A stretch of DNA of 41,284 bases from a bacterium. GTDB taxonomy: Bacteria; Zhuqueibacterota; QNDG01; DSAB01. The notes under the pieces were generated by a model. That model was given only the letters and a program-made list of their open reading frames with translations. It did no database searches and had not been told where the DNA came from. The stretch's first letter is position 1; every line of letters begins with the position of its first letter. This document shows positions 135 to 23,219 of the stretch, piece after piece. Position numbers and translations under genes: made by a program. The DNA lies in the NCBI GenBank assembly GCA_011388275.1, contig DSAB01000119.1, positions 1 to 41,284 of the forward strand, read 5' to 3'.

Positions 135-1691
135 TTAAATCGAATGCCGGCTTTCTTCTTTGATTTCCAGAAGTCGATCGACCACGTACCCGGTCTCGCC
201 CTTCCCGTCGCTTTGATTCTGAATCAGATCGACAACCATTTCCATGGCAAGGGTTATGGAATCAATGACTTTCTTTGAAACTTTCATTTCCCGGTTCAGG
301 CAACTCTCCAGCAATTCGATGATTGAGCTCAGCAGGTGACCGATTTCATCGAATCCGAACATCTGACTCGACGCGTGAAGCAATTTACAGGACTGAATGG
401 CATCGAGCAGAGCGCGCCGATTCTCCGGATTCTCTCTCAAGTCATGAACGGCCCTGTCGAATTTTTTCAAATCACCGGCGGCTTCCTCTTCAAAGATTTG
501 ATAAAAAAGCAAAGTGGTCTGAGTCAAAGGCCTTTTTGAACCGGTTCGAGTCGCGGTTTCAGAACCCGAGGAGAGAATCGATTCCTTGATATCAAATATC
601 GTCTGCCCGTTTTCAAGTATGGATTCATTGATCTGCATGTCATCATGCGACTCATCATCCGCGGAGAGATAAGAATCCTGAATGGCTCGTTTTTCAGGGA
701 TGTCCGGTTGAGGCAGCCCGCTGACTACCAGCATAACGCGCAATGTTTCGCGCAGTTTTTTATCGACCGTTACGCCCCATATGATCCGGGCATTGGGATC
801 CACGCTGTCTGACAGATATTTAATCAAATTTCTTGTTTCTTTCAATGTCAGGTTGGCGCCGCCGCTGATATGAACCAGTATACTTTGCGCGCTGCGTATA
901 TCGACCTTCATCATGGGATGATTGATGGCCCGGTTGACGGCCTCTTCCAAGCGATTTTCAGAATTGCTTTCTCCCAGACCGATAAATGCATGAGGTCCGT
1001 CTTTCATAACTGCACTGACATCGGCAAAATCAAGATTGACCAGGCCTTTTTTCAAGACCATGTCGGAAATACTCATCACTGCATTGACCAGAAATTCATC
1101 CCCTTTATGAAAAGCATGACCTACCGGCTGATCGGGGTACAGATCAAGAAGCCGGTCATTATTGAGCACAATGAGGCTGTGAACCTTTTTACGGAGTTTT
1201 TCCAGTCCGACCTGTGCGTTTTCCCACCTGACTATACCCTCTTCAGAGAATGGCAAGGTCACTACGGCGATTGTCAGGATGCCCATCTCCTTGGCAATTC
1301 CGCAGATAACCGGTGCCGATCCGGTGCCGGTGCCTCCGCCCATGCCGCAGGTCATAAAAAGAAGGTCTGTTCCGTCGAGTTCCGTTTTAATCAGATCTCG
1401 ACTCTCTTCAGCCGCCCGTTCTCCAATCTCCGGATCTCCGCCCGCGCCCAATCCTCCGGTGATGTTCTTTCCGATCAGGATTTTTCTTTCGGCTTTAGAT
1501 TCCAGCAGATCCTGGGCATCCGTGTTGACCGCAATGGTTTGAATTCCTTCCGCATTCAAACCGAAAAGGTGCCGAATGGTATTGTTGCCTGCACCCCCGG
1601 TTCCCAGAACCCTGATAATTGTATGATATGGCTGTATGACGGACTCTTTCGCCGCCTGAACAGATTGCATGATCTGTTCTTTGGTGACCAT
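135..1691 (-). CDS. archaeal-type FtsZ/tubulin GTPase fused to a degenerate Hpt-like domain
   Basis: A 518-aa protein. Residues about 24-326 are a full FtsZ GTPase: GGAG near 32-35, NTDAQ near 56-60, the tubulin signature GGGTGTGS at 118-125, and the catalytic T7 loop NLDFADV at 219-225. GTP binding and polymer-coupled hydrolysis should therefore be intact. Details such as TGSAP and PNARIIWG look more like archaeal FtsZ than the bacterial division protein. The usual C-terminal peptide that binds FtsA/ZipA is absent. Instead, after a linker of about 65 residues, positions 393-493 match a CheA-P1/Hpt helical domain (acidic IFEEEA start, NPEN turn, MFGFDEI). The phospho-histidine position holds Lys436, while His439 sits where Hpt domains carry the conserved lysine. 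Start: ATG at 1691 has GGGAG 6 nt upstream; a GTG at 1706 is in frame but less likely. The upstream gene is a CheY-like regulator, so a signal-controlled filament is inferred. It is probably not the main division FtsZ. Confidence 0.88.
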
Positions 1692-2411: not shown

Positions 2412-3770
2412 TCACTCGATCCTGTAACTTTTCAGTTTTTCCCGCAACGTGGACCTGGAAATATCAAGGATACGAGCCGCCTGGGATTTATTGCCGCCGA
2501 CCGTTTTGAGAATCTCCGCAATGTGAATTTTTTCCATCTCCTGAAGAGAAATCTTTCCGGGTGAACCCACTCGGCTGTGAGGAATATCGCTTCCCGTCTT
2601 GATTTCCAAAGGCAGATTTTCCGGCATCAAGATATCATCCCTGCAGAGTATAACCGCCCGTTCAATCACATTCTTCAATTCGCGTACATTCCCCGGCCAG
2701 GAATATGCAGTCAGCAGTTCTTCTGTCTTTTTATCCAGCTTTTGAATATGCCTGTTGAATTCCTTGTTAAACTCCTGCAGAAAGAGTTTAGTCAGGAGCA
2801 ATATATCTTCTTTCCGCTCCCGCAGCGGAGGTATCTTTATTTCAAGCACTTTCAACCGATAATACAGATCATCCCGGAATTCTTTGTTTTTAACCAATTT
2901 TGCCAGTTCGGTATTCGTTGCGGCAACTACGCGAACATCGATTTTAATATCGATCAGACCGCCTATACGCCGAACGGTCTGCGATTCAATGACCCGCAGG
3001 ATTTTCGGCTGAAGAGCAAGTTTCATGCTCGAAATCTCATCGAGGAATATCGTTCCGCCGTTGGCAAATTCAAAGAGGCCTTTTTTGATCGCCTTTGCAT
3101 CGGTGAACGCGCCTTTTTCATGGCCGAACAATTCACTCTCCAGAAGGTGATCCGGAATGGCGCTGCAATTGATCTTGATGAAAGGCTGATCCGCTCTCTG
3201 ACTTGAATAGTGAATGGCATTGGCAACCAGCTCCTTTCCGGTACCGCTCTCTCCCTCAATGAGAACCGATGTTTTCGGCGTCTCGGCCACGACTTTCACC
3301 AAATCACGTACATGAATGATTTCAGCACTTTCTCCGTATAGAACATCGACCGGATTCTTTTCCTGATGAGCCCGTTTGAGACGGAATACTTCCCGTTTCA
3401 GTTGATGGGTTTCCAGGGCTTTTCGAACGACCAGCTTCATCTCGTCCAGTTCAAACGGTTTCATTAAATAGTCATATGCCCCCTTTTTCATCGCCTCAAT
3501 GGCCGGTTTAGGATCCGTAAGTGCCGTCATCATGATCACCAGTGCATCAGGATCAAATTCCTTTATTTTGTTCAATGCCTGAATACCATCCATTTTAGGC
3601 AGTTTCAGGTCCAGCAAAACCAGATCAATAATCTCTTTCTGAAAGATATCGATACCCGCTTCGGCGCTGGATACGGAAATAACCTTGTGTCCTTCTTTCT
3701 TCAGTACATTGTTCAGTGTAAAAACCAAATCTTCATTATCTTCAATGATTAACAGCTTTGCTTTTTCCAT
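2412..3770 (-). CDS. sigma54-dependent NtrC-family response regulator
   Basis: A 452-aa protein with the standard three-part layout. The receiver is 1-120 (Asp10/Asp11 pocket, phospho-acceptor Asp54, Lys104). The AAA+ domain is about 145-370, with Walker A GESGTGKE at 173-180, the sigma54-contact loop GAFTDA at 220-225 (canonical GAFTGA) and Walker B IFLDE near 241-245. A Fis-type helix-turn-helix sits at the C-terminus ([14 protein letters not shown]). It should activate sigma54 promoters when phosphorylated. The chosen start, ATG 3770, has GGGAG upstream and overlaps the kinase stop by 29 nt. The longer open frame up to 3896 is only kinase sequence read in another frame. The kinase encoded just upstream is the obvious partner, as in ZraSR or AtoSC pairs. 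Target genes are not evident here. Confidence 0.93.
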
Positions 3771-5673
3771 TCTTATCTCCCACGGGCAAAACGATGATAA
3801 AACGGGTTCCCTGATCAAGCCGGCTTTGGACAAAAATGTCGCCATCGTGTTCCTTGATGATTCGGTAAACAATGGATAAACCCAGTCCAACCCCATTTGT
3901 CTTGGTCGTTACAAATGGATCGAATATGGTTTCGATCCGGCTCGGGTCGATTCCCACCCCGGAATCAATTACTTCAATTTTTGCGTATGTATTTTCCGAA
4001 TGGAACTCTTTTAACGTTTTATTCGAATTCGAATATTCGGGGTACGGGCTCGAATCTTTTTGGGCCTTAATGGATAAGGTGCCGCCATGCGGCATGGCAT
4101 CAAGGGCGTTTAAAATCAGATTCAAGAAGACTTGCTGCATTTGCTGGAAATCGGCGTTGATCATCAGTGTCTTGCTGATTTTCTCCACATAATCAACATG
4201 GCTGCTGTCTATCTTCTTTCCGACAAGGTTGGTCACTTCACGCAGAATTTCAATGAGCTTGTGAGGTTTCCGATCCGGCGGCCTGGGTCTGGCGTAGGCA
4301 AAAAATGTCTTAAGCAAATCATCGAGCCGGTTGACCTGTCGCACAATGCGGGTCAAATATTCGATTCGGGGATCAGAGGGATCGAATTCATCCTTACACG
4401 CCTGGGCCATGGTTTTTATACCAGCCAGAGGGTTCTTGATCTCATGAGCGATTCCTGAAGCAACCACACCCAAAGAAGCCAGGCGATCCATGCGGATCAC
4501 TTCAGTCTGCATTTGCTTAATCATCGAAATATCCCGAAATGAAATAATGGTTCCCGCCTTTTTATTTTGATTATCCAGCCTGGCAGTGGAGGTGAAACCG
4601 ATGGCAATGCGTTTCCCTTCATTGCTCGTCAATTCCATTTCACGCCTGAACGGAAGAGATTCACGCCTCGGATCAGAAAGAAGGTTGTCCGCTTTTTCTT
4701 CACCCAAAAAACTTTTCAGGGGTTTCCCCGTAATCTCTCGAGCCTTCCAGCCCAATATCTTTTCTCCTCCGGCATTGAGAGAGGTCACGCACCCATTCAG
4801 GTCGGTTGTCAGAAGACCGGCTTCCATGCTCTGAATAATACTTTCGTTGAAATTTTTCAGTTCAAGTATTTCCTCCTCCATCTGTTTCGATTCTGTGACG
4901 TCTCTGGCGATGCCGATAGAACCGATTATCGTGCCTCTTCGGTCGACAAACGGGGTGATATTGAATGAAAGTATGGTATTTTTCTCCGTGCGTCCAAGAA
5001 TGCGTGCTTCAAAAATACGGGCTTTCCCCTGATGGGCCATATCATAGTGCTTGACTGCCATGTCACGGTCGTCCGGATCGATCAAGGATTGAAACATTTT
5101 ACCCAGCCACTCATCTTTCGACCAGCCGGTAAGAGGAGTAAATCGGTTGTTGAGATAGATAAAACGCCCATCCTGGTCCAGTGTAAAAACAAAGTCATTG
5201 GCGTTTTCAAGTAAATCCCGATAACGGAATTCACTCCTTTTAACTTCCCGGCTGAGTTCACGATTCCTCTCCATGATGCCATGGACCATCAAAAGATTCT
5301 CGAGCACTTCACGCAATTCATGGTCACCGAAAGGTTTTGTAAACCATCCCCAAAGCCCCTTCTGAAATAATTCCGGTCCATAAGTGGTTCTTTCTTTATG
5401 TTCAGAAAAAATGACAAACGGGATGTGCCGATAAACGCGTGTGGATCTGTTTTCCATAAAACGATTAAAAATTGTCTTTGCATCCAGGTCGATTGTATGG
5501 AATTCGCAGACAATCAGAATGGGTTTGATGGCAGGAATTTGCATCAACCCCTCTTCTCCGGACACAATCCGGACAATACGGTATCCGCTCTGTTCCAGGG
5601 CATCTACCATCTTTCTATAGGTTTCGTCATCCGGTTCAATGAGGAGAATGGGATTTTGAACGCTTGTCGGCAT
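3742..5673 (-). CDS. soluble PAS-PAS histidine kinase with an N-terminal pseudo-receiver
   Basis: A 643-aa protein with no membrane segment. Residues 8-130 have a receiver fold with the conserved lysine (Lys113 in TKPF), but the phospho-acceptor position is Glu57 (IVCEFH) instead of Asp. This mimics, or bypasses, phosphorylation. Two PAS domains follow (about 148-265 and 275-385). The HisKA domain has phospho-His410 in GIAHEIKNPLAG, and the ATPase domain has the N box (LILNALDAM), G1 (DSGVGI) and G2 (GVGLGL). This is the NtrB/ZraS type. Its 3' end overlaps the NtrC-type regulator by 29 nt, so the two are almost certainly a cognate pair. The start ATG at 5673 has no clear SD; translation may be coupled to the kinase ending 35 nt upstream. 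Confidence 0.9.
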   Translation of the reverse strand: MPTSVQNPILLIEPDDETYRKMVDALEQSGYRIVRIVSGEEGLMQIPAIKPILIVCEFHTIDLDAKTIFNRFMENRSTRVYRHIPFVIFSEHKERTTYGPELFQKGLWGWFTKPFGDHELREVLENLLMVHGIMERNRELSREVKRSEFRYRDLLENANDFVFTLDQDGRFIYLNNRFTPLTGWSKDEWLGKMFQSLIDPDDRDMAVKHYDMAHQGKARIFEARILGRTEKNTILSFNITPFVDRRGTIIGSIGIARDVTESKQMEEEILELKNFNESIIQSMEAGLLTTDLNGCVTSLNAGGEKILGWKAREITGKPLKSFLGEEKADNLLSDPRRESLPFRREMELTSNEGKRIAIGFTSTARLDNQNKKAGTIISFRDISMIKQMQTEVIRMDRLASLGVVASGIAHEIKNPLAGIKTMAQACKDEFDPSDPRIEYLTRIVRQVNRLDDLLKTFFAYARPRPPDRKPHKLIEILREVTNLVGKKIDSSHVDYVEKISKTLMINADFQQMQQVFLNLILNALDAMPHGGTLSIKAQKDSSPYPEYSNSNKTLKEFHSENTYAKIEVIDSGVGIDPSRIETIFDPFVTTKTNGVGLGLSIVYRIIKEHDGDIFVQSRLDQGTRFIIVLPVGDKNGKSKAVNH

Positions 5674-5708: not shown

Positions 5709-7778
5709 CTATTCAATGGTTCCTTTTGGCAGTGTGAAAGAGAAAACCGAGCCAACGCCCAGCTTGCTGTTGACCTTGATGGTTCCTCCATGCTGATCAA
5801 TAATCTCGCGGGCCAGAGCCAATCCCAGGCCTGAACCTTCCTGCTCTTCCATTCCGTCTTCATGGGTCACCCTGTAAAATTTTTCAAAGATGTGCGGAAG
5901 AGAATCCTCCGGAATGCCATAACCGTTGTCGATCACACTCACAACAATATGATCGCCCTCTTCCTTGACTTCAAGGCCGATTTTCGAATATCGGGGGCTG
6001 TATTTTATAGCATTGGAGTACAGGTTCAGAATAACCTGTTCGATCATATCCTGTTCGCCGAGGGCTGCTGGAAGATCGGAAGGAATCTCGGCCAAAACTT
6101 TGATTCCCTTTTTTTCAGCCTGCGCTTTGTAATTTTCGATAATTTTATGAATCAAATCCTTCAGATTAAAGGGATTCATATGAATTTCTGTACGACCGGA
6201 TTCGAGTCTGGATAGATCCAGAAATTTATTGACCAGATCCGTCAGACGTGTTGATTCGTTTAGTATAATTCGAGCGTATTCATTGGCTTTGGGATCCTGC
6301 AGGTTGGATTCCAAAAGCAGTTCGGAGAAACCGAAGATAGATGTCAAAGGAGATTTCAATTCATGCGCGACCATTGAAATCAATTCGGTTTTCATTTGAT
6401 CAATTTCTTTTTCTTTGGTAATATCCCGAAAAACCGTTACCGCTCCCAGAAGCGTTTCGTCCTGATCATGCAGTCTGGCGGAATGGGCCTGAAACATACG
6501 TTTTTCACCATGAGGTCCGGAAAGGGGAAAATCCAGTTTTGCCTCCGGCCTGCCGTCACGAATTTCCTGGATTAATGAGATTAGCGGTTGACTTTTAATG
6601 CAATCAGCCACGGGCCGGTTGATAACTTGCGTCTGGGTAAGATCAAACCATTTCATAAACACGTTGTTTATAACGACCACACGATTCTGGGCGTCCGTGA
6701 CCAGAACTCCGTCGGCGATGTTCCGCAAAATGGTTTCGGTCTTGTTTTTCTCTGTGATGATTTCATAAACATCCAGTTTCTGCATTCTGCTCATCTCTTC
6801 AGCCATGTAATTAAAAAGGTGTATCAGCCGATTCAAATAATGATGCTTAAGAGGCATAATGATCCCCTGAAACTCGCCTCTGGCAATCTTTGTCGCTTCC
6901 ATGGACAGACGTCTCGTCGGTTTGTCAATAAATATTGAAGTTATGAAGGCCAGTATCCACGTGAAGACAAAACCCAACACCCAGTACGGATAAGGAAATG
7001 GTCCGGAAATGACAGAAACGGTTGGATCGGATCCGGAAAAAACAAGCTTCCAGGGGAGCATTCGAAAATCGGTTTCGGCCAAATGACGATCGGATTCGGA
7101 AATACGGGGATTCCACTCTTCCGGGAGAACACCCAGGATTTGACCCTGTTCATCCAGTATGGCTGCTTTTTCCTGATTTTCGATTACTTTTTGAAGTGCC
7201 GATGGAATATCAAGCGGATAATGTATTTCACTGCCCCTGAATATCGGATGTGGCATCGAAAAAGACTGCACGAGGATCCGTCCGCCCAGTTCAGGGAGAT
7301 TTAGAATACGAATGCCGTTTGCAGGAGATTCATGAAATCGATTGGGGAAAAGTGAATTAAACAGTTTCGCCCGTTTTTGATCGGATAAATTCGCCACACC
7401 CGGTAATGTCCAGAAATCCTTGTTGACGTTTCTGAGCGGCCATGTCTGGTTTTTCGGCCAAACCGTTACACAAATCAGAAAAGAATTGGATTCCATGAAA
7501 CGGGACAGACGAACAGCGGCATTTTCTGAATTGATCGATGTCAGCTCTTGAAGCCAAAGCGTTCGAACAGATTGCACCAATTCATTTTCCAGGCGGTCGA
7601 CAATCGTGTTCTGTCGTTCAGCATAGTCTATATTGGTGTCAACGGCAGAAATTTGACCTGAAAATTGATTGAGAAATAAACAAAAGGTCAATAAGAACAA
7701 TATTAACAAAGCGGTCCAGACTCTCCAAAAAGTAAAAGCCGTAACCGCCGAACGATGAGCACGGCTTGTCAAATTCAT
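5709..7778 (-). CDS. membrane sensor histidine kinase (TM-HAMP-PAS-HisKA-HATPase)
   Basis: A 689-aa protein. One transmembrane helix lies near residues 20-38, then an extracytoplasmic sensor region of about 220 residues with no recognised fold, a second helix near 264-284 and a HAMP-like linker (about 285-337). A PAS domain (345-455) leads into HisKA, with phospho-His472 in MVAHELKSPLTSI, and an ATPase domain with DNGYGIP and GSGLGLA motifs. The arrangement matches the PhoR/ResE group. It lies 14 nt after the GGDEF gene and 35 nt before the soluble kinase, all in one operon. No dedicated DNA-binding regulator lies beside it, so it may feed the receiver of the GGDEF protein or of the NtrC protein. 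Confidence 0.92.
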   Translation of the reverse strand: MNLTSRAHRSAVTAFTFWRVWTALLILFLLTFCLFLNQFSGQISAVDTNIDYAERQNTIVDRLENELVQSVRTLWLQELTSINSENAAVRLSRFMESNSFLICVTVWPKNQTWPLRNVNKDFWTLPGVANLSDQKRAKLFNSLFPNRFHESPANGIRILNLPELGGRILVQSFSMPHPIFRGSEIHYPLDIPSALQKVIENQEKAAILDEQGQILGVLPEEWNPRISESDRHLAETDFRMLPWKLVFSGSDPTVSVISGPFPYPYWVLGFVFTWILAFITSIFIDKPTRRLSMEATKIARGEFQGIIMPLKHHYLNRLIHLFNYMAEEMSRMQKLDVYEIITEKNKTETILRNIADGVLVTDAQNRVVVINNVFMKWFDLTQTQVINRPVADCIKSQPLISLIQEIRDGRPEAKLDFPLSGPHGEKRMFQAHSARLHDQDETLLGAVTVFRDITKEKEIDQMKTELISMVAHELKSPLTSIFGFSELLLESNLQDPKANEYARIILNESTRLTDLVNKFLDLSRLESGRTEIHMNPFNLKDLIHKIIENYKAQAEKKGIKVLAEIPSDLPAALGEQDMIEQVILNLYSNAIKYSPRYSKIGLEVKEEGDHIVVSVIDNGYGIPEDSLPHIFEKFYRVTHEDGMEEQEGSGLGLALAREIIDQHGGTIKVNSKLGVGSVFSFTLPKGTIE

Positions 7779-7792
7779 ACCCCCAGGCTCTT

Positions 7793-8767
7793 TTACACCA
7801 GGACAAATCGGTTGCGTCCGTTTCTTTTCGCTTGATACAATGCCTGATCCGTCAAATGAATCAGAGTTTCTTCATCCTCGGCATCGTCAGGATATGTCGC
7901 TGCTCCGATACTCACTGTGATTCGGCTCGATTCAGTACGGTCCATCAACGCAAAATTGGCCTTTTCGATGAGTCCCCGTAATTTTTCGGCGACAAAAGCG
8001 GACGACCGTTTGTCTGTACCCGGAAGAATGACGGTGAATTCTTCGCCTCCATAACGCGCGAGACAGTCAATCTCCCGAATATTTTTTTTCAACAGTGAGG
8101 CAAATTGCTGCAAAGCGCGATCCCCGTTCAGGTGACCGAATTGATCATTGTATTCCTTAAAATGATCGATGTCTATTATAAGCAGCGAAACCGGCATTCG
8201 AAATCTTTTAGACCTCGATATTTCGTGCTTTAACTGCCGTCGAAAAGCACGGTAATTGTATACGGCGGTTAGTCCGTCAGTTACAGCCAGGGTTTTCAGC
8301 TTCTCTTTAACGGCTTCCAGCTCTTCAACTTTCTGCTCCAGAATTTCATTCAGGCGCTTGATGCGAACCAGAGATTTAATACGGGTGATAAGTTCGACAC
8401 GGTGTACGGGTTTGCTGATAAAATCATCCGCTCCGGCTTCAATTCCCTGTATGCGTTCCTGATTCCCTCTTAATGCAGTCAGAAGAACAATGGGAATAAA
8501 ACGAGTCTGTTTTGAAGATTTCATTTTTCGGCAAATCTGCAATCCATTCATGTCCGGAAGAAGAACATCCAGAATCACGGCACTGGGAGGATCTTCCTGG
8601 ACCATGTTCAAGGCTTCTCCTCCTTTTCGTGCCATTTTGACTTCATATCCGTTGGATGTCAATATCTCCTTTAAGAGAAGCCGATTGCTGGGATCATCAT
8701 CGACTATGAGAATGACATCTCTTTTTGTTTCTGATTCTTTGATGGTTCTGGCCAGATCGGCTGTCAC
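7793..8767 (-). CDS. response regulator with GGDEF domain (diguanylate cyclase, PleD/WspR-like)
   Basis: A 324-aa protein. The receiver is 17-135, with acidic Asp23-25, phospho-acceptor Asp67 (VILDVLLPD) and Lys119. A coiled coil (about 137-160) links it to a GGDEF domain at 162-324. The catalytic motif is intact (GGEEF, 240-244), and the product-inhibition site RxxD is present at 231-234, the usual five residues before it. It should make cyclic di-GMP from two GTP when phosphorylated and be feedback-inhibited. The start is GTG at 8767, 6 nt after the gcvPB stop, with a purine-rich AAAGAGA upstream. It sits between gcvPB and the membrane kinase, which is a likely phospho-donor. Confidence 0.93.
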   Translation of the reverse strand: MTADLARTIKESETKRDVILIVDDDPSNRLLLKEILTSNGYEVKMARKGGEALNMVQEDPPSAVILDVLLPDMNGLQICRKMKSSKQTRFIPIVLLTALRGNQERIQGIEAGADDFISKPVHRVELITRIKSLVRIKRLNEILEQKVEELEAVKEKLKTLAVTDGLTAVYNYRAFRRQLKHEISRSKRFRMPVSLLIIDIDHFKEYNDQFGHLNGDRALQQFASLLKKNIREIDCLARYGGEEFTVILPGTDKRSSAFVAEKLRGLIEKANFALMDRTESSRITVSIGAATYPDDAEDEETLIHLTDQALYQAKRNGRNRFVLV

Positions 8768-10545: not shown

Positions 10546-10863
10546 ATGCCTGAAAAAGAGATCGAAGGACGTATTTTTGAAGTAGACGGTGACGGTTTTC
10601 TGCAGAATCCGGAAATTTGGAACGATGAGGTAGCCCGCCTTTTCGCCGGCGAAGATGGGACCGGAGAACTGTCCGAAGATCACTGGAAAGTTATTCGATT
10701 TATTCGTGAGCATTGGGAAAACAACGACATGGCACCCATGGTTCGTAAGATCTGCCAGCACACCGGGCTGCGATTGCGGCAGATCTATGAACTCTTCCCC
10801 ATGGGACCGGCCCGCGGAGCCTGCAAAATCGCCGGATTGCCCAAACCGGACGGATGCGTCTGA
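10546..10863 (+). CDS. dsrC: DsrC/TusE-family sulfur carrier with both redox cysteines
   Basis: A 105-aa small cytoplasmic protein of the usual DsrC length. It ends in the flexible arm GACKIAGLPKPDGCV. The penultimate Cys104 and Cys93 eleven residues before it are both present, which marks true DsrC; TusE-type proteins keep only the last cysteine. In sulfate reducers and sulfur oxidisers these cysteines carry sulfur as a persulfide or trisulfide, and DsrC is recycled by DsrMK-type membrane complexes. The next two genes encode just such a complex, starting with a TGATG overlap. No dsrAB sulfite reductase is in the window, so the sulfur donor is unknown. It may work as a redox relay or regulator. 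Confidence 0.93.
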   Translation: MPEKEIEGRIFEVDGDGFLQNPEIWNDEVARLFAGEDGTGELSEDHWKVIRFIREHWENNDMAPMVRKICQHTGLRLRQIYELFPMGPARGACKIAGLPKPDGCV

Positions 10864-11519
10864 TGGCAGAATCCATGAATGCGGCCCGCATTGTCTTTCT
10901 TTCCGGTCTGGGCGTTTTTTTGTTGTCTGCTGTTTATCAATGGATCCGCGTATTCATCAACGCCAATACCGAAGACTTTACACAGCCTAAAGGGACGGTA
11001 CTGCCCGCGTTCGCGTACGCCCTGACAGGCGCCATGATGCCGCATAAAAAAGAGACGGCATTTCTTCACCTACCCACTTATTGGATGGGCATTGCATATC
11101 ATCTCGGTTCATTTGTTGCTCTTGCCTGGCTGCCTGTTCACTTTTTCGAATGGCGTATTCCTGATTCAATCATGATTGTCTGCGCCGCCGTTTTGATTCC
11201 ATCGGTTTTTTCGGGTTTGATAATTTTAATTAAACGGATCAGCGTGTCCTCGCTTCGGCACCTTTCATCGCCGGATGATTATTTCAGCAACGCTCTTGTC
11301 ACTCTATTTCAGGCAATTTCTTCAATGGCTCTTTTGGGTATTATTCCGGTCTTTCTGGTTTTATCCATTGGTGGACTTTTGTTAATGTATATCCCGGTTG
11401 GAAAACTCCGGCATGTGATCTTTTTTCTGATCGCCCGTTTCTTTCTAAGCTGGTTCTATGGACGAAGAGGTGTATGGCCTCCAAAAAGGCGGATATTATG
11501 GAAAAAAAACAATCATTGA
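10863..11519 (+). CDS. cytochrome-b-like membrane subunit (DsrM/TmcC/HdrE-like)
   Basis: A 218-aa hydrophobic protein with about five membrane helices (near residues 6-30, 65-95, 103-126, 145-180 and 185-205) and several histidines in or near the helices. It ends in a YGRRGVWPP-like tail typical of NarI/DsrM-type quinone-reactive cytochromes b. It probably holds two hemes b and exchanges electrons with menaquinone. The start ATG 10863 shares bases with the dsrC stop (TGATG), implying coupled translation; an in-frame ATG at 10854 is less likely. The 3' end overlaps the iron-sulfur subunit gene. The family call rests on topology, end motif and neighbours. It could be TmcC-like rather than DsrM-like. 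Confidence 0.75.
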   Translation: MAESMNAARIVFLSGLGVFLLSAVYQWIRVFINANTEDFTQPKGTVLPAFAYALTGAMMPHKKETAFLHLPTYWMGIAYHLGSFVALAWLPVHFFEWRIPDSIMIVCAAVLIPSVFSGLIILIKRISVSSLRHLSSPDDYFSNALVTLFQAISSMALLGIIPVFLVLSIGGLLLMYIPVGKLRHVIFFLIARFFLSWFYGRRGVWPPKRRILWKKNNH

Positions 11520-12796
11520 CACGCGACCGGGAAAAGGCTCTCAAAGGTTTCGCAATGTCCATGGACGGTCGTCTTCTCGCCCACCTGAACAGTTGCGTCC
11601 ATTGTGGTCTCTGTGCCGAATCCTGCCATTATTATCTAAGCACCGGTGAAGAAAAGTATATGCCGGCCCGAAAGGTTGATCAGCTGGCCCGTATTTACAG
11701 ACGTTATCATACCGTAGCGGGAAAAATATTTCCTCGATGGATCGGCGCCTCGGACTTCAACGATCAGAGTATTCAGGAAATGGTGGACGTACTGTTCGGC
11801 GGATGTACGATGTGCGGACGGTGCTCCCTGCACTGCTCGATCGGCGTAGACATCCCCTTTCTTGTCAGGACGGCCAGAAGTATGCTGGTGGAACTGGGTC
11901 GGGTCTCCCCGGGCCTTCAATCCACCGTGGACGCCGCGGTTCAAACCGGCAACAACATGGCCATTCCCCGTGAAGAACTGGTGGACACCCTTCAGTGGCT
12001 GGAAGAAGATCTTCGTATGGAGGTCAATGATGAAAAGGCGTCCATACCCATGGATGTTCCACATTGCCGCCTGCTATACACACTGAATCCTCGCGAGCCG
12101 AAATTTTTTCCACTCTCTATCAGTGCCATGGCCAAGATCTTTTATGCCGCGGATGAGAGCTGGACCCTTTCGACACACTGCTACGATGTGACGAATTACG
12201 CCTATTATTCCGGAGATGATCATACGGCCGAAGAGCTGACGCAAAGGCTTTTCGATGAAATGATCAAGCTGAACGCTCAGGAACTGGTTCTCGCCGAATG
12301 CGGCCATGGTTCGCGCGCTATTCGCTGGGAAGGACCCCGATGGCTTAAAAAGAAATTTCCATTCCCGGTGATCTCGGTGATCGAACTGATTGCAGGCTAT
12401 ATACACTCAGGCCGAATCGCGGTCGATCCATCGAAGAATACAACTCCCGTGACTCTTCATGACCCGTGTAACCTGGTCCGAGCCGGAGGTGTCATTGAAG
12501 AGCAGCGTTACGTTCTTAAAAAGGTCGTCAGCGATTTTCGTGAAATGACACCCAACCGTGAAAACAACTACTGCTGCGGAGGCGGAGGCGGTCAGCTTTC
12601 AATGGGTGAATACAGGGAAAGGCGGGTTGCCGCGGGTAAAATAAAGGCCGATCAGATCAAGAAAACAGGCGCCGCGATCGTCGCCACTCCCTGTCACAAT
12701 TGTATCGATCAATTGATGGAATTGAACAAAGAATACAGCCTGGGAGTCGAAATAAAAACCGTGGGCGAACTGGTCGCCGATGCGTTGATTCTCTGA
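11498..12796 (+). CDS. iron-sulfur CCG-domain reductase subunit (DsrK/TmcB/HdrD-like)
   Basis: A 432-aa protein. Two ferredoxin-type motifs (CVHCGLCAESCHY and CTMCGRCSLHCSIGVD) lie in the N-terminal third and should bind two [4Fe-4S] clusters. The C-terminal half has one complete CCG motif, C-X34-CC-X38-CxxC (DPC...YCCGGGGG...PCHNC), which holds the noncubane cluster that cleaves disulfides in HdrB/D. The first CCG half is degenerate, as in DsrK. It would take electrons from the membrane subunit and reduce the DsrC disulfide or trisulfide, or run in reverse. The start at 11498 has AGGCGG five bases upstream; ATG 11474 is an alternative with a poorly spaced SD. It overlaps the membrane gene by 22 nt. 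The exact name (DsrK, TmcB or HdrD) cannot be settled by eye. Confidence 0.88.
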   Translation: MEKKQSLTRDREKALKGFAMSMDGRLLAHLNSCVHCGLCAESCHYYLSTGEEKYMPARKVDQLARIYRRYHTVAGKIFPRWIGASDFNDQSIQEMVDVLFGGCTMCGRCSLHCSIGVDIPFLVRTARSMLVELGRVSPGLQSTVDAAVQTGNNMAIPREELVDTLQWLEEDLRMEVNDEKASIPMDVPHCRLLYTLNPREPKFFPLSISAMAKIFYAADESWTLSTHCYDVTNYAYYSGDDHTAEELTQRLFDEMIKLNAQELVLAECGHGSRAIRWEGPRWLKKKFPFPVISVIELIAGYIHSGRIAVDPSKNTTPVTLHDPCNLVRAGGVIEEQRYVLKKVVSDFREMTPNRENNYCCGGGGGQLSMGEYRERRVAAGKIKADQIKKTGAAIVATPCHNCIDQLMELNKEYSLGVEIKTVGELVADALIL

Positions 12797-20592: not shown

Positions 20593-22752
20593 TCAACGGA
20601 TCAGGGCTATCTTGCCGGTCACGGTTTTTCCGCCGGTCTTTGCCGCAACAACGAGATAGATTCCTGATGAAACGGCATGACCATTATTATCTTTTCCATT
20701 CCACTGTACGCGTCTTCCATATATCTCGTTTTGTTTGAAACCGCGTACAAGATATCCCGATGTCGAAAAGATATGAACCGTCACGTCTTTAGCCAGACGG
20801 TCGATCGTCAGCAGACCGTGTTGATCGGGTCTGAAAGGATTCGGGTAGACCTTCAGTTCTTCCAAAGATTCCAGGGGCTTGGAATAGGGTGTGCTCAGGA
20901 TGGAAATCCCCCGGTTGGTACCAATATACAGAAATCCGTTGACCGGATCAAGGAATAGTGTGCTGATATCATGACTGACAAGAGGACTGTTGTCACTGGT
21001 AAAATGTGTCCACTGAAATGTGGATTGATTGAACAGACTCAAACCCGCGCCGGTTCCTATCCAGACATTGTTCATGCCGTCTACCGTGACCGCCTGAATA
21101 TTTTCTGATGGGACACCGCTTTGTCGCGAAACCTGCGTACCCAGGGCGTAATAAAGGCCGTTGGGCGTTCCAATCCACATCAGTCCATCCCGGCCGGCCG
21201 CTAAATTATTGATTTCGTTGGTCGACAGGCCGTTGGCCGTGGTAATTCGTCCGATGGGAGGATCATCCATGACATTGGATGGAGTTTGATTGTCATCGAG
21301 AATATAGATTCCTCTGGAATCGAGCGCACCGGTTCCGATCCATTTTCTTCCGTATTCGTCAACAGACAGAGCGCTGACGAAAATGCTGTTTAATTGCTGC
21401 TGAAAACCGTATCGAGTCCATTGGCCATCGGAGGAATAAGCGATGAGCGGCTGGGCATCCGCGGATTCCCGGTTGAGAAACCAAACCGTATTCAGATTGT
21501 CAACGGCAATATCCAGACAGACCGCAAATTTATTGTCGACCTGTATTCCTGCAAAATATCCGTTAAATGCGTTATAGGCCGACACTTCTCCTTCCGGAGA
21601 GATTCGAAAGGCTCCGTCACCATAGCTGCCGATCCATACATAATTGTTGTTGTCAACATGGCAGCTTACAAAATCGTTGTAACGGATATTCGACGTATTA
21701 TCCCTGTTGTACAGAAACCATCGGTCGCCGTCATATTTGAAAAAACCCCTGTCCCGTGAACAAACCCACAAATTACCCTGATGATCGACTGCGATGTCTG
21801 AAACCAGGTTGCTTCCAAGGCAGTTGGGTATGAACTCATGCCAGTTTTCCTGGTCATCGATGCCGACAATGCCATCTTCCGTCCCTCCCCAAAGAAGGGA
21901 ATTGAAAGAAGCCATCCGTTGAACAGGCCGAGGCGCGTCAGGAAGTTTTTGCAGCCAGCCGTCCTTCAACTCGAACATTCCATTTACGGTCGATACCGTT
22001 AAAATTCCTTCATGCTCGATCACGTCATAACAATAACGCGTGGTCAATACAGACCAGGCTCCGTTCCACGCGGCCAGCCCAGCTGGAGTCGCAGCGTACA
22101 GGACATCATCCAGAACAGCCAGAGCGGAGACTGAATTGGCGGGCAGTCCGTCTTCCAGGGTTATGTTCTCCCATTGAGCCGGATCCATGAGATTCGTCGC
22201 GGACAGAGGCGCCCGTGCGATGCCAAATTCCGTGGCCGCCCAGAGAGTATCCTGAAATAGGAGAACGGACGTGACCGGTGTGTTTGCCTGAAAGGCACCC
22301 AGTCTGCGATAGGTTTCTTTTACTTCCATACGGGATGGAATAAACAGACTGATACCAAGATTCAGCGCCACGAACAAGGAATCTCCCTTCTGGGCAAAAC
22401 CGCGAACCGCGTAAGGCATGTACACTTCAAAAGGAATCCAGTGTTCATCTTCCGCTTCCCTGAGTAGAAGCATACCCGATTCGTATCCGACCCACAAGCG
22501 TTGACAGGAATCAAACAAAAGCCCCTGAACCGGCCCTGCAGCCAGTCCGTCTGTTTGTGTGAATATTTGAAAAGATTGTGCAGTCGGTGAGAATGCCATC
22601 AGACCGCCGGTGCTTCCGATCCACAAAACGGAATCGGATGGAGCGAGAACGGTCACTTCACGGGTGGAAACCAGAGTGTCCCATTTCCATACATCCCCGT
22701 GCAATGCAGAGGCAAAGAGAAGAAGAGGAATAAAGAACTTGGAAATTCTCAC
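20593..22752 (-). CDS. secreted beta-propeller protein, PorZ-like, with T9SS/FlgD-type C-terminal domain
   Basis: A 719-aa protein. The GTG start at 22752 overlaps the ribH stop (GTGA) and gives a clean signal peptide ([18 protein letters not shown]). The longer frame from 22770 would add residues before the signal peptide. The body (about 25-630) has many repeats of the two-component-regulator propeller type, with recurring LWIGT, VWIGS and [11 protein letters not shown] motifs, enough for two propellers. Residues about 635-719 start with VYPNPF and end in an Ig-like domain ([14 protein letters not shown]). This matches T9SS sorting or FlgD-like domains and the two-propeller PorZ layout of Bacteroidetes. 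PorZ sits at the cell surface and helps the type IX machinery attach cargo to lipopolysaccharide. No other T9SS gene is visible. Confidence 0.8.
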
Positions 22753-23219
22753 TTCTTCAATCCCCGCCACAAATCCGCCATTTCAACGGCATTCAAGGCC
22801 GTCTGCCAGCCCTTGTTTCCCTGTTTGGTACCGGCCCTTTCAATGGCCTCCTCCAGGGTGTCACAGGTCAGTACCCCATAGAGGGTCGGGATTCCGGTTT
22901 GCAGTCCGACCTGGGCAATTCCCTTGGTCACTTCCGCGGCGACGTACTCGAAATGGACAGTGCCCCCCCGAATGACTGCCGCCAGGCAGATCAATGCGTC
23001 AAATCGGCCGCTTTGTGCCAGATTCTGAGCGGTTACAGGAATCTCAAAGGACCCCGGAACCCAGACCACTTCGATGTTTTCCTCGGATCCGCCGTGACGA
23101 AGGATACAGTCCAGAGCTCCTTCCAGCAAGCGGGTCGTGATAAATTCATTGAACCGGCTGATAATAATACCGAATTTCCTGCCGGAAGCGGACAGCTGTC
23201 CCTGATACACTTTTGCCAT
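22749..23219 (-). CDS. ribH: 6,7-dimethyl-8-ribityllumazine synthase
   Basis: A 156-aa protein of normal family length. It joins the ribBA product with 5-amino-6-ribitylaminouracil to make lumazine, the penultimate riboflavin step, in a large icosahedral or pentameric shell. Family motifs are [21 protein letters not shown] and [15 protein letters not shown]. The start at 23219 overlaps the ribBA stop as TGATG and has GAGGAGGG six bases upstream; the adjacent ATG at 23222 is too close to the SD. It overlaps the PorZ-like gene by 4 nt downstream. Confidence 0.97.

Follow-up and report, generated by a model that had tools for sequence, protein, structure and literature searches.

What does an FtsZ-type GTPase do with a helical bundle of the Hpt type where the peptide used in division would be expected? 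The question is raised by a gene close to one end of the stretch of DNA analysed here, which is 41,284 nucleotides long and is referred to below as the window. A preliminary description of the gene had proposed a complete GTPase core, the loss of the C-terminal division peptide, and a linker and CheA-P1/Hpt-like helical domain as the replacement tail. The product, which we call FtsZ-pHpt, has the following layout; an alternative start of the gene is the GTG at 1706.

135–1691 (−): FtsZ-pHpt gene, second FtsZ with a pseudo-Hpt tail, 518 aa
714–1634 (−): FtsZ GTPase core, residues 20–326, Tubulin and FtsZ_C (Pfam; PDB similarity)
1320–1340 (−): nucleotide-binding loop GGGTGTG, residues 118–124 (sequence; conserved in homologues)
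1020–1037 (−): T7 synergy loop NLDFAD, residues 219–224, intact (sequence; conserved in homologues)
522–713 (−): linker, residues 327–390 (disorder prediction, about 331–386)
582–596 (−): FDIKE motif in the linker, residues 366–370 (motif comparison)
222–521 (−): pseudo-Hpt four-helix bundle, residues 391–490, CheA P1 fold (sequence, profile, fold)
384–386 (−): Lys436, in the column of the CheA P1 phospho-accepting His (alignment of tails)
141–197 (−): fifth helix, residues 499–517 (structure and disorder prediction)

The proposed architecture is borne out. Pfam Tubulin (3.7e-47) and FtsZ_C (2.1e-27) match residues 26–326 over their cut-offs, and the residues of the G-box (GGGTGTG) and of the T7 loop (NLDFAD) are mostly invariant among 38 homologues and otherwise nearly so; judged from its sequence, the GTPase core looks competent for polymerisation. 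Inspection of the tail of the window protein revealed neither the bacterial IPxFLR peptide, through which FtsA, ZipA or SepF would be contacted, nor the archaeal GID peptide. Residues 391–517 are predicted to be helical and residues from about 331 to 386 disordered, and a clade-conserved GETGYIVDRL lies just ahead of the fifth helix and reaches into it. The same fusion was found in about 50 related genomes, which rules out an assembly or frameshift artefact.

FtsZ-pHpt is not the FtsZ of division in its own cell. The genome to which the window belongs (2.8 Mb, 96% complete) encodes a separate canonical FtsZ of 402 aa on contig C15, preceded by FtsA and with the C-terminal end DDLNIPAFIRRQKE; canonical copies end in IPAFIRR-like peptides. 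The FtsZ-pHpt gene is neither in the dcw cluster, with its ftsA neighbourhood, nor the single ftsZ copy. Across the phylum, which is represented by MAGs only, the paralogue was detected at E below 1e-100 in about 50 of the 82 genomes, and nearly all of these genomes give a further FtsZ match of canonical type. About one third of the phylum's genomes lack the paralogue. Roughly 200 genomes of other phyla yielded no paralogue past 1e-90, and a second sample of other phyla likewise gave none, the best outside score being 286 bits. The long FtsZs retrieved from other phyla mostly terminate in an IPxFLR-like peptide, and their length is therefore attributable to long linkers rather than to a pseudo-Hpt fusion. 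Two very divergent FtsZ paralogues, at L092:1843-3405 (−) and L093:2602-4164 (+), form a long branch and carry FDVRE or FDVRQ in the linker; an NtrC-REC neighbourhood accompanies both, together with a lytic transglycosylase (SLT) in L092, and their tails are too divergent to call.

We conclude that FtsZ-pHpt represents a second, conserved FtsZ whose core is of archaeal type and which exists beside the canonical one, a conclusion that goes beyond the preliminary description. The closest solved relative of the core is the archaeal FtsZ1 of M. jannaschii, at 341 bits against 268 for the best bacterial structure, and the ranking is reversed for the canonical copy (B. subtilis, 396 bits; M. jannaschii, 290 bits). 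Membership of the CetZ and TubZ families can be rejected, since their structures score 53 and 35 bits compared with 341 for FtsZ1, as can membership of the FtsZl2/Tubulin_2 family (PF13809), which has no match at E≤1 on the window protein. In a maximum-likelihood tree of 20 paralogues, 5 archaeal FtsZs and 36 bacterial FtsZs, with outgroups picked by similarity, the paralogues and the archaeal FtsZs are split from the bacterial FtsZs with support of 99.9/100. Among the five archaeal sequences, the paralogues lie beside those of FtsZ1 type rather than FtsZ2 type (88/93), and on this sampling we assign the core, from its sequence, to the FtsZ1 side. Monophyly of the five archaeal sequences is weakly rejected (p-AU 0.03, p-SH 0.08).

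The paralogue might instead have arisen by duplication of the FtsZ native to the phylum, its archaeal look being due to rapid evolution of the core. Both copies are FtsZ, the archaeal sampling is just five sequences, and long-branch effects are known in mixed archaeal–bacterial FtsZ trees (PMC9871819). However, the paralogue branches are not long, with the exception of L092 and L093, and the similarity ranking and the archaeal–paralogue split both speak against such an origin. Moreover, a tree constrained to unite the paralogues with the canonical FtsZ of the phylum as sister groups is worse by 223 log units and is rejected by the AU test (p-AU 1.6e-5). We regard a duplication within the phylum as very improbable.

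The structure of the tail was predicted with AF2 from 50 homologous tails, and the full-length protein was predicted as well. The domain model, of mean pLDDT 90.9, comprises the four-helix bundle expected from the preliminary description (391–490) and the fifth helix (499–517). The top Foldseek matches are solved CheA P1 domains (2ld6, 2lp4, 1i5n and 1tqg), with an rmsd of 1.1 Å and a TMt of 0.87 for 1tqg, and the complex of CheA3 P1 with CheY6 (3kyi) is also among the matches. Sequence comparisons agree with the fold. The single window sequence finds the T. maritima CheA P1 domain with phmmer at 1.7e-6, a profile of the tails retrieves several chains of CheA P1 with E-values between 5e-12 and 6e-10, and profile–profile alignment with the phylum's genuine Hpt domains gives 98% probability and 2.7e-13. 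Pfam Hpt (PF01627) is matched by 41 of the 50 tails at E≤1, the best at 3e-7; for the window protein itself the E-value is 0.015, below the curated cut-off, so that here the assignment is based on the profile and fold results. A Pfam match of the tail to TIM21 (0.014) is also below cut-off, conflicts with the fold and was rejected.

The bundle lacks the residue on which phosphorelay chemistry depends. In the column of the acceptor His, the 50 tails have S (17), K (11), T (7), E (3), A (3), N (3), I (2) and others, and in no case His, in contrast to the genuine Hpt domains from the phylum, where His is present in 13 of 13. The HxxKG motif of Hpt domains is lost too. One helical turn past the acceptor column the window protein has a histidine, His439, which is shared by just 5 of the 50 tails, and no conserved alternative His was found near the column in the set. 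The tail is thus a pseudo-Hpt domain, a bundle derived from CheA P1 in which the phospho-accepting His is gone, and canonical phosphotransfer is excluded as far as the sequences can tell. Four genuine Hpt domains are encoded elsewhere in the window's genome; phosphorelay chemistry therefore exists in the cell, though not in FtsZ-pHpt. In paralogues from loci L048–L086, outside the window's taxonomic order, an acidic tail often continues past the bundle, and the last 12–15 residues form terminal peptides that differ between clades (VREAVKYFDKLF, DAVKYVDKLL and LKMELN, for example) and could possibly replace the FtsZ C-terminal peptide.

Immediately upstream of FtsZ-pHpt in the window are genes for signalling proteins.

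1809–2216 (−): stand-alone receiver (REC), 135 aa, directly upstream of ftsZ (Pfam; phosphorylation residues)
2412–3767 (−): NtrC-type response regulator, REC-AAA-Fis HTH (Pfam; locus comparison)
3742–5673 (−): histidine kinase HK1, with a weak REC, two PAS, HisKA and HATPase (Pfam; locus comparison)
5709–7778 (−): histidine kinase HK2, with PAS, HisKA and HATPase (Pfam; locus comparison)
7793–8767 (−): REC-GGDEF diguanylate cyclase, 14 nt upstream of HK2, candidate member of the unit (Pfam)

The order from upstream to downstream is REC-GGDEF, HK2, HK1, NtrC, stand-alone REC and FtsZ-pHpt. The genes share one strand and are either closely spaced or slightly overlapping; the listed NtrC reading frame starts at 3896, and a start at 3767 is more likely. 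The stand-alone receiver retains all the phosphorylation residues (D12, D13, D58, T and K) and has no output domain, and it would therefore need a protein partner. As the REC-GGDEF gene adjoins HK2, c-di-GMP signalling may share a regulon with the HK2 unit. The window contains 14 sigma-54-like sites where chance predicts 17.2, which lends no support to NtrC targets there, and a consensus promoter and terminator scan of the window was near chance. Elsewhere in the window, divergent genes at 10546–12796 (+) encode what may be relatives of DsrC, of a DsrM/NarI-like membrane protein and of a DsrK/HdrD-like protein. A propeller-like protein of 725 aa (20593–22770 (−)) has the C-terminus VYPNPFRP...GIYLVVA, presumably akin to the secretion-sorting domain of the FCB group.

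Relatives in the window's taxonomic order repeat the arrangement HK2-HK1-NtrC-REC-FtsZ, followed in several by an FAD oxidase and then by thrS-infC-rplT-pheS, upstream of which the FtsZ-pHpt gene lies in loci L039–L047. Proximity to translation genes is common for archaeal ftsZ1 as well (PMC8178401), a similarity that is probably coincidental. In most of the remaining phylum the operon is NtrC, REC-PATAN (DUF4388), ParA-like ATPase, REC, SLT, c2, FtsZ-pHpt and c6, though individual genes are missing from some loci; the SLT proteins have a hydrophobic N-terminal segment that could serve as a membrane anchor. Counted over 51 loci, several of them on short contigs, REC or NtrC is upstream and co-directional in 36, c2 is present in 31, SLT in 29, ParA in 23, c6 in 22 and a histidine kinase in 11. 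One family of FtsZ-pHpt (f23, 7 loci) has none of these neighbours. The window's taxonomic order has no ParA, SLT, c2 or c6 beside FtsZ-pHpt. A single-sequence search of its genomes, run without a positive control, detected no c2, and a c2 profile gave only cross-matches there to FtsZ-pHpt and to CheA/Hpt-type domains, with the control genome G026 scoring 3e-116.

The c2 and c6 families (L048:3196-5814 and L048:7744-8958, with homologues in about 31 and 22 loci, respectively) mostly have no Pfam matches; the motif FKLPGEDDxEL is found in c2. Profile–profile comparison (95–98%) identifies two further Hpt-like domains in each family, many c6 members being too short for the second. No His occupies the acceptor column in either domain of c2 (31 sequences) or in the first domain of c6 (22 sequences); these three domains make up the comparison, the second c6 domain being absent or poorly aligned in many members. 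The linker motif F[DEQ][IVM][KRSN][DE], the FDIKE type, can be made out in 27 of the 52 paralogues and is nearly invariant in c6, and its occurrence in both proteins suggests a shared binding partner.

What the bundle does can be considered against this background. The preliminary description had filaments under two-component control with the tail as a phosphorelay module. Control by two-component signalling is supported by the gene context, in the kinases, NtrC and REC of the window and in the REC or NtrC genes upstream at 36 of 51 loci; the phosphorelay tail fails at its acceptor residue. A true Hpt domain, taking phosphate from a histidine kinase and controlling filaments directly, would account for the fold and for the kinase neighbours, yet the acceptor His is missing from all 50 tails and the histidine one turn further on is found in too few of them (5 of 50). 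We consider this reading exceedingly improbable and reject it. By contrast, the bundle could be purely structural, an oligomerising or anchoring module in place of the membrane-tethering peptide, with the nearby regulators controlling only the transcription of the operon via NtrC. It might bundle filaments or assemble with c2 and c6. The complete absence of the acceptor His is in keeping with such a role, the several pseudo-Hpt domains per operon suggest packing of bundle on bundle, and NtrC is next to REC. Purely transcriptional regulation sits poorly, however, with the stand-alone and PATAN-linked receivers, devoid of DNA-binding domains, that recur phylum-wide beside FtsZ together with NtrC, and with the chance level of sigma-54-like sites in the window. 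We view a structural tail as possible though doubtful.

FtsZ-pHpt could also be an accessory division protein that assembles together with the canonical Z ring or regulates it, its tail serving as a ring-regulatory domain. The FtsZ1-type core, the division of labour between FtsZ1 and FtsZ2 in H. volcanii (PMC8178401) and the canonical-type FtsZ match in nearly all paralogue genomes favour this. Nevertheless, the gene lies outside the dcw cluster, it is surrounded by genes for signalling and for the envelope instead of division genes, and some one third of the phylum's genomes lack it; we think a role in division rather unlikely. The reading that we prefer, and to which we would give not quite an even chance, is that of a signal-regulated FtsZ filament that organises local remodelling of the envelope, with the pseudo-Hpt bundles as docking sites.

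According to this preferred reading, FtsZ-pHpt would form cytoplasmic, GTP-dependent filaments, either separate from the division ring or accessory to it. The pseudo-Hpt bundle would be a docking module for a receiver in its phosphorylated state (in the case of the window, the stand-alone REC encoded next to it), and it may also, or instead, bind other pseudo-Hpt proteins of the operon. By analogy with the CheA3 P1–CheY6 complex among its fold matches, a CheA-P1-derived bundle would offer a natural receiver-binding surface. That a receiver protein can act on FtsZ assemblies has a precedent in the PATAN-REC protein PatA of Anabaena, which binds divisome proteins and lowers Z-rings (PMC7380572). 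How the filaments assemble, bundle or are placed would then depend on kinase signalling, with no phosphoryl group passed to the bundle. Across most of the phylum, a ParA ATPase for placement and a membrane-anchored lytic transglycosylase for cutting peptidoglycan would join the complex, and with these partners the filament would probably organise local remodelling of envelope or peptidoglycan; the window's taxonomic order would keep a reduced version of kinases, NtrC, REC and FtsZ. The most detailed form of the proposal, an archaeal-type filament whose dead-Hpt tail and dead-Hpt scaffolds are switched by phosphorylated receivers, placed by ParA and coupled to the lytic transglycosylase so as to remodel the envelope at chosen sites, is put forward tentatively, as a possibility well short of an even chance.

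No description of an FtsZ with a pseudo-Hpt tail was found in the part of the literature covered, in agreement with the earlier remark that no described system of this layout was known. A survey of ftsZ genes found a second copy in few bacteria only and no notable transfer between archaea and bacteria (PMC9871819); it is against this survey that the finding in about 50 genomes of one phylum is to be seen, a second FtsZ of archaeal type that has a new tail and is accompanied by a conserved operon of signalling and envelope genes. If the mechanism is true, two-component signalling would be linked directly to a tubulin-family filament, which would be under phospho-signal control without phosphotransfer onto the filament. 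Dead Hpt domains would gain a use as scaffolds, and the system would be informative about what FtsZ1-type proteins do, and how, in roles other than division.

Among known systems, archaeal FtsZ1 (M. jannaschii and haloarchaeal) is closest in its core, has an intact GTPase and T7 loop, and exists beside a second FtsZ. Unlike it, FtsZ-pHpt is bacterial, lacks the C-terminal GID peptide defined for FtsZ1 (PMC8178401) and has a long linker, a pseudo-Hpt tail and a signalling operon. Canonical bacterial FtsZ shares the two-domain GTPase core, from which FtsZ-pHpt departs in its missing IPxFLR peptide, its location outside dcw and the separate presence of a canonical copy. FtsZl1 and FtsZl2 are FtsZ-like proteins thought to act apart from division, with extra C-terminal regions consisting of a coiled coil and a helical domain, in operons with vWA, or of an alpha/beta tail (Makarova and Koonin 2010, PMC2875224); FtsZ-pHpt differs in its standard FtsZ_C core and its pseudo-Hpt domain and does not match Pfam Tubulin_2. 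PatA acts, like the proposed receivers, on FtsZ assemblies, and REC-PATAN is encoded in the phylum's operon, although PatA affects a canonical Z ring via ZipN and SepF (PMC7380572) and no Hpt-tailed FtsZ is involved. CheA P1 and other Hpt domains (PF01627) share fold and profile homology with the tail, which is distinguished by the loss of the acceptor His in every member, the loss of HxxKG and the fusion to FtsZ. Papers on plant phosphorelays describe pseudo-HPt proteins. Those of the AHP6 type have the Hpt fold minus the acceptor His and still operate inside two-component pathways; they are free-standing plant proteins, whereas the pseudo-Hpt domain described here is the tail of a cytoskeletal GTPase.
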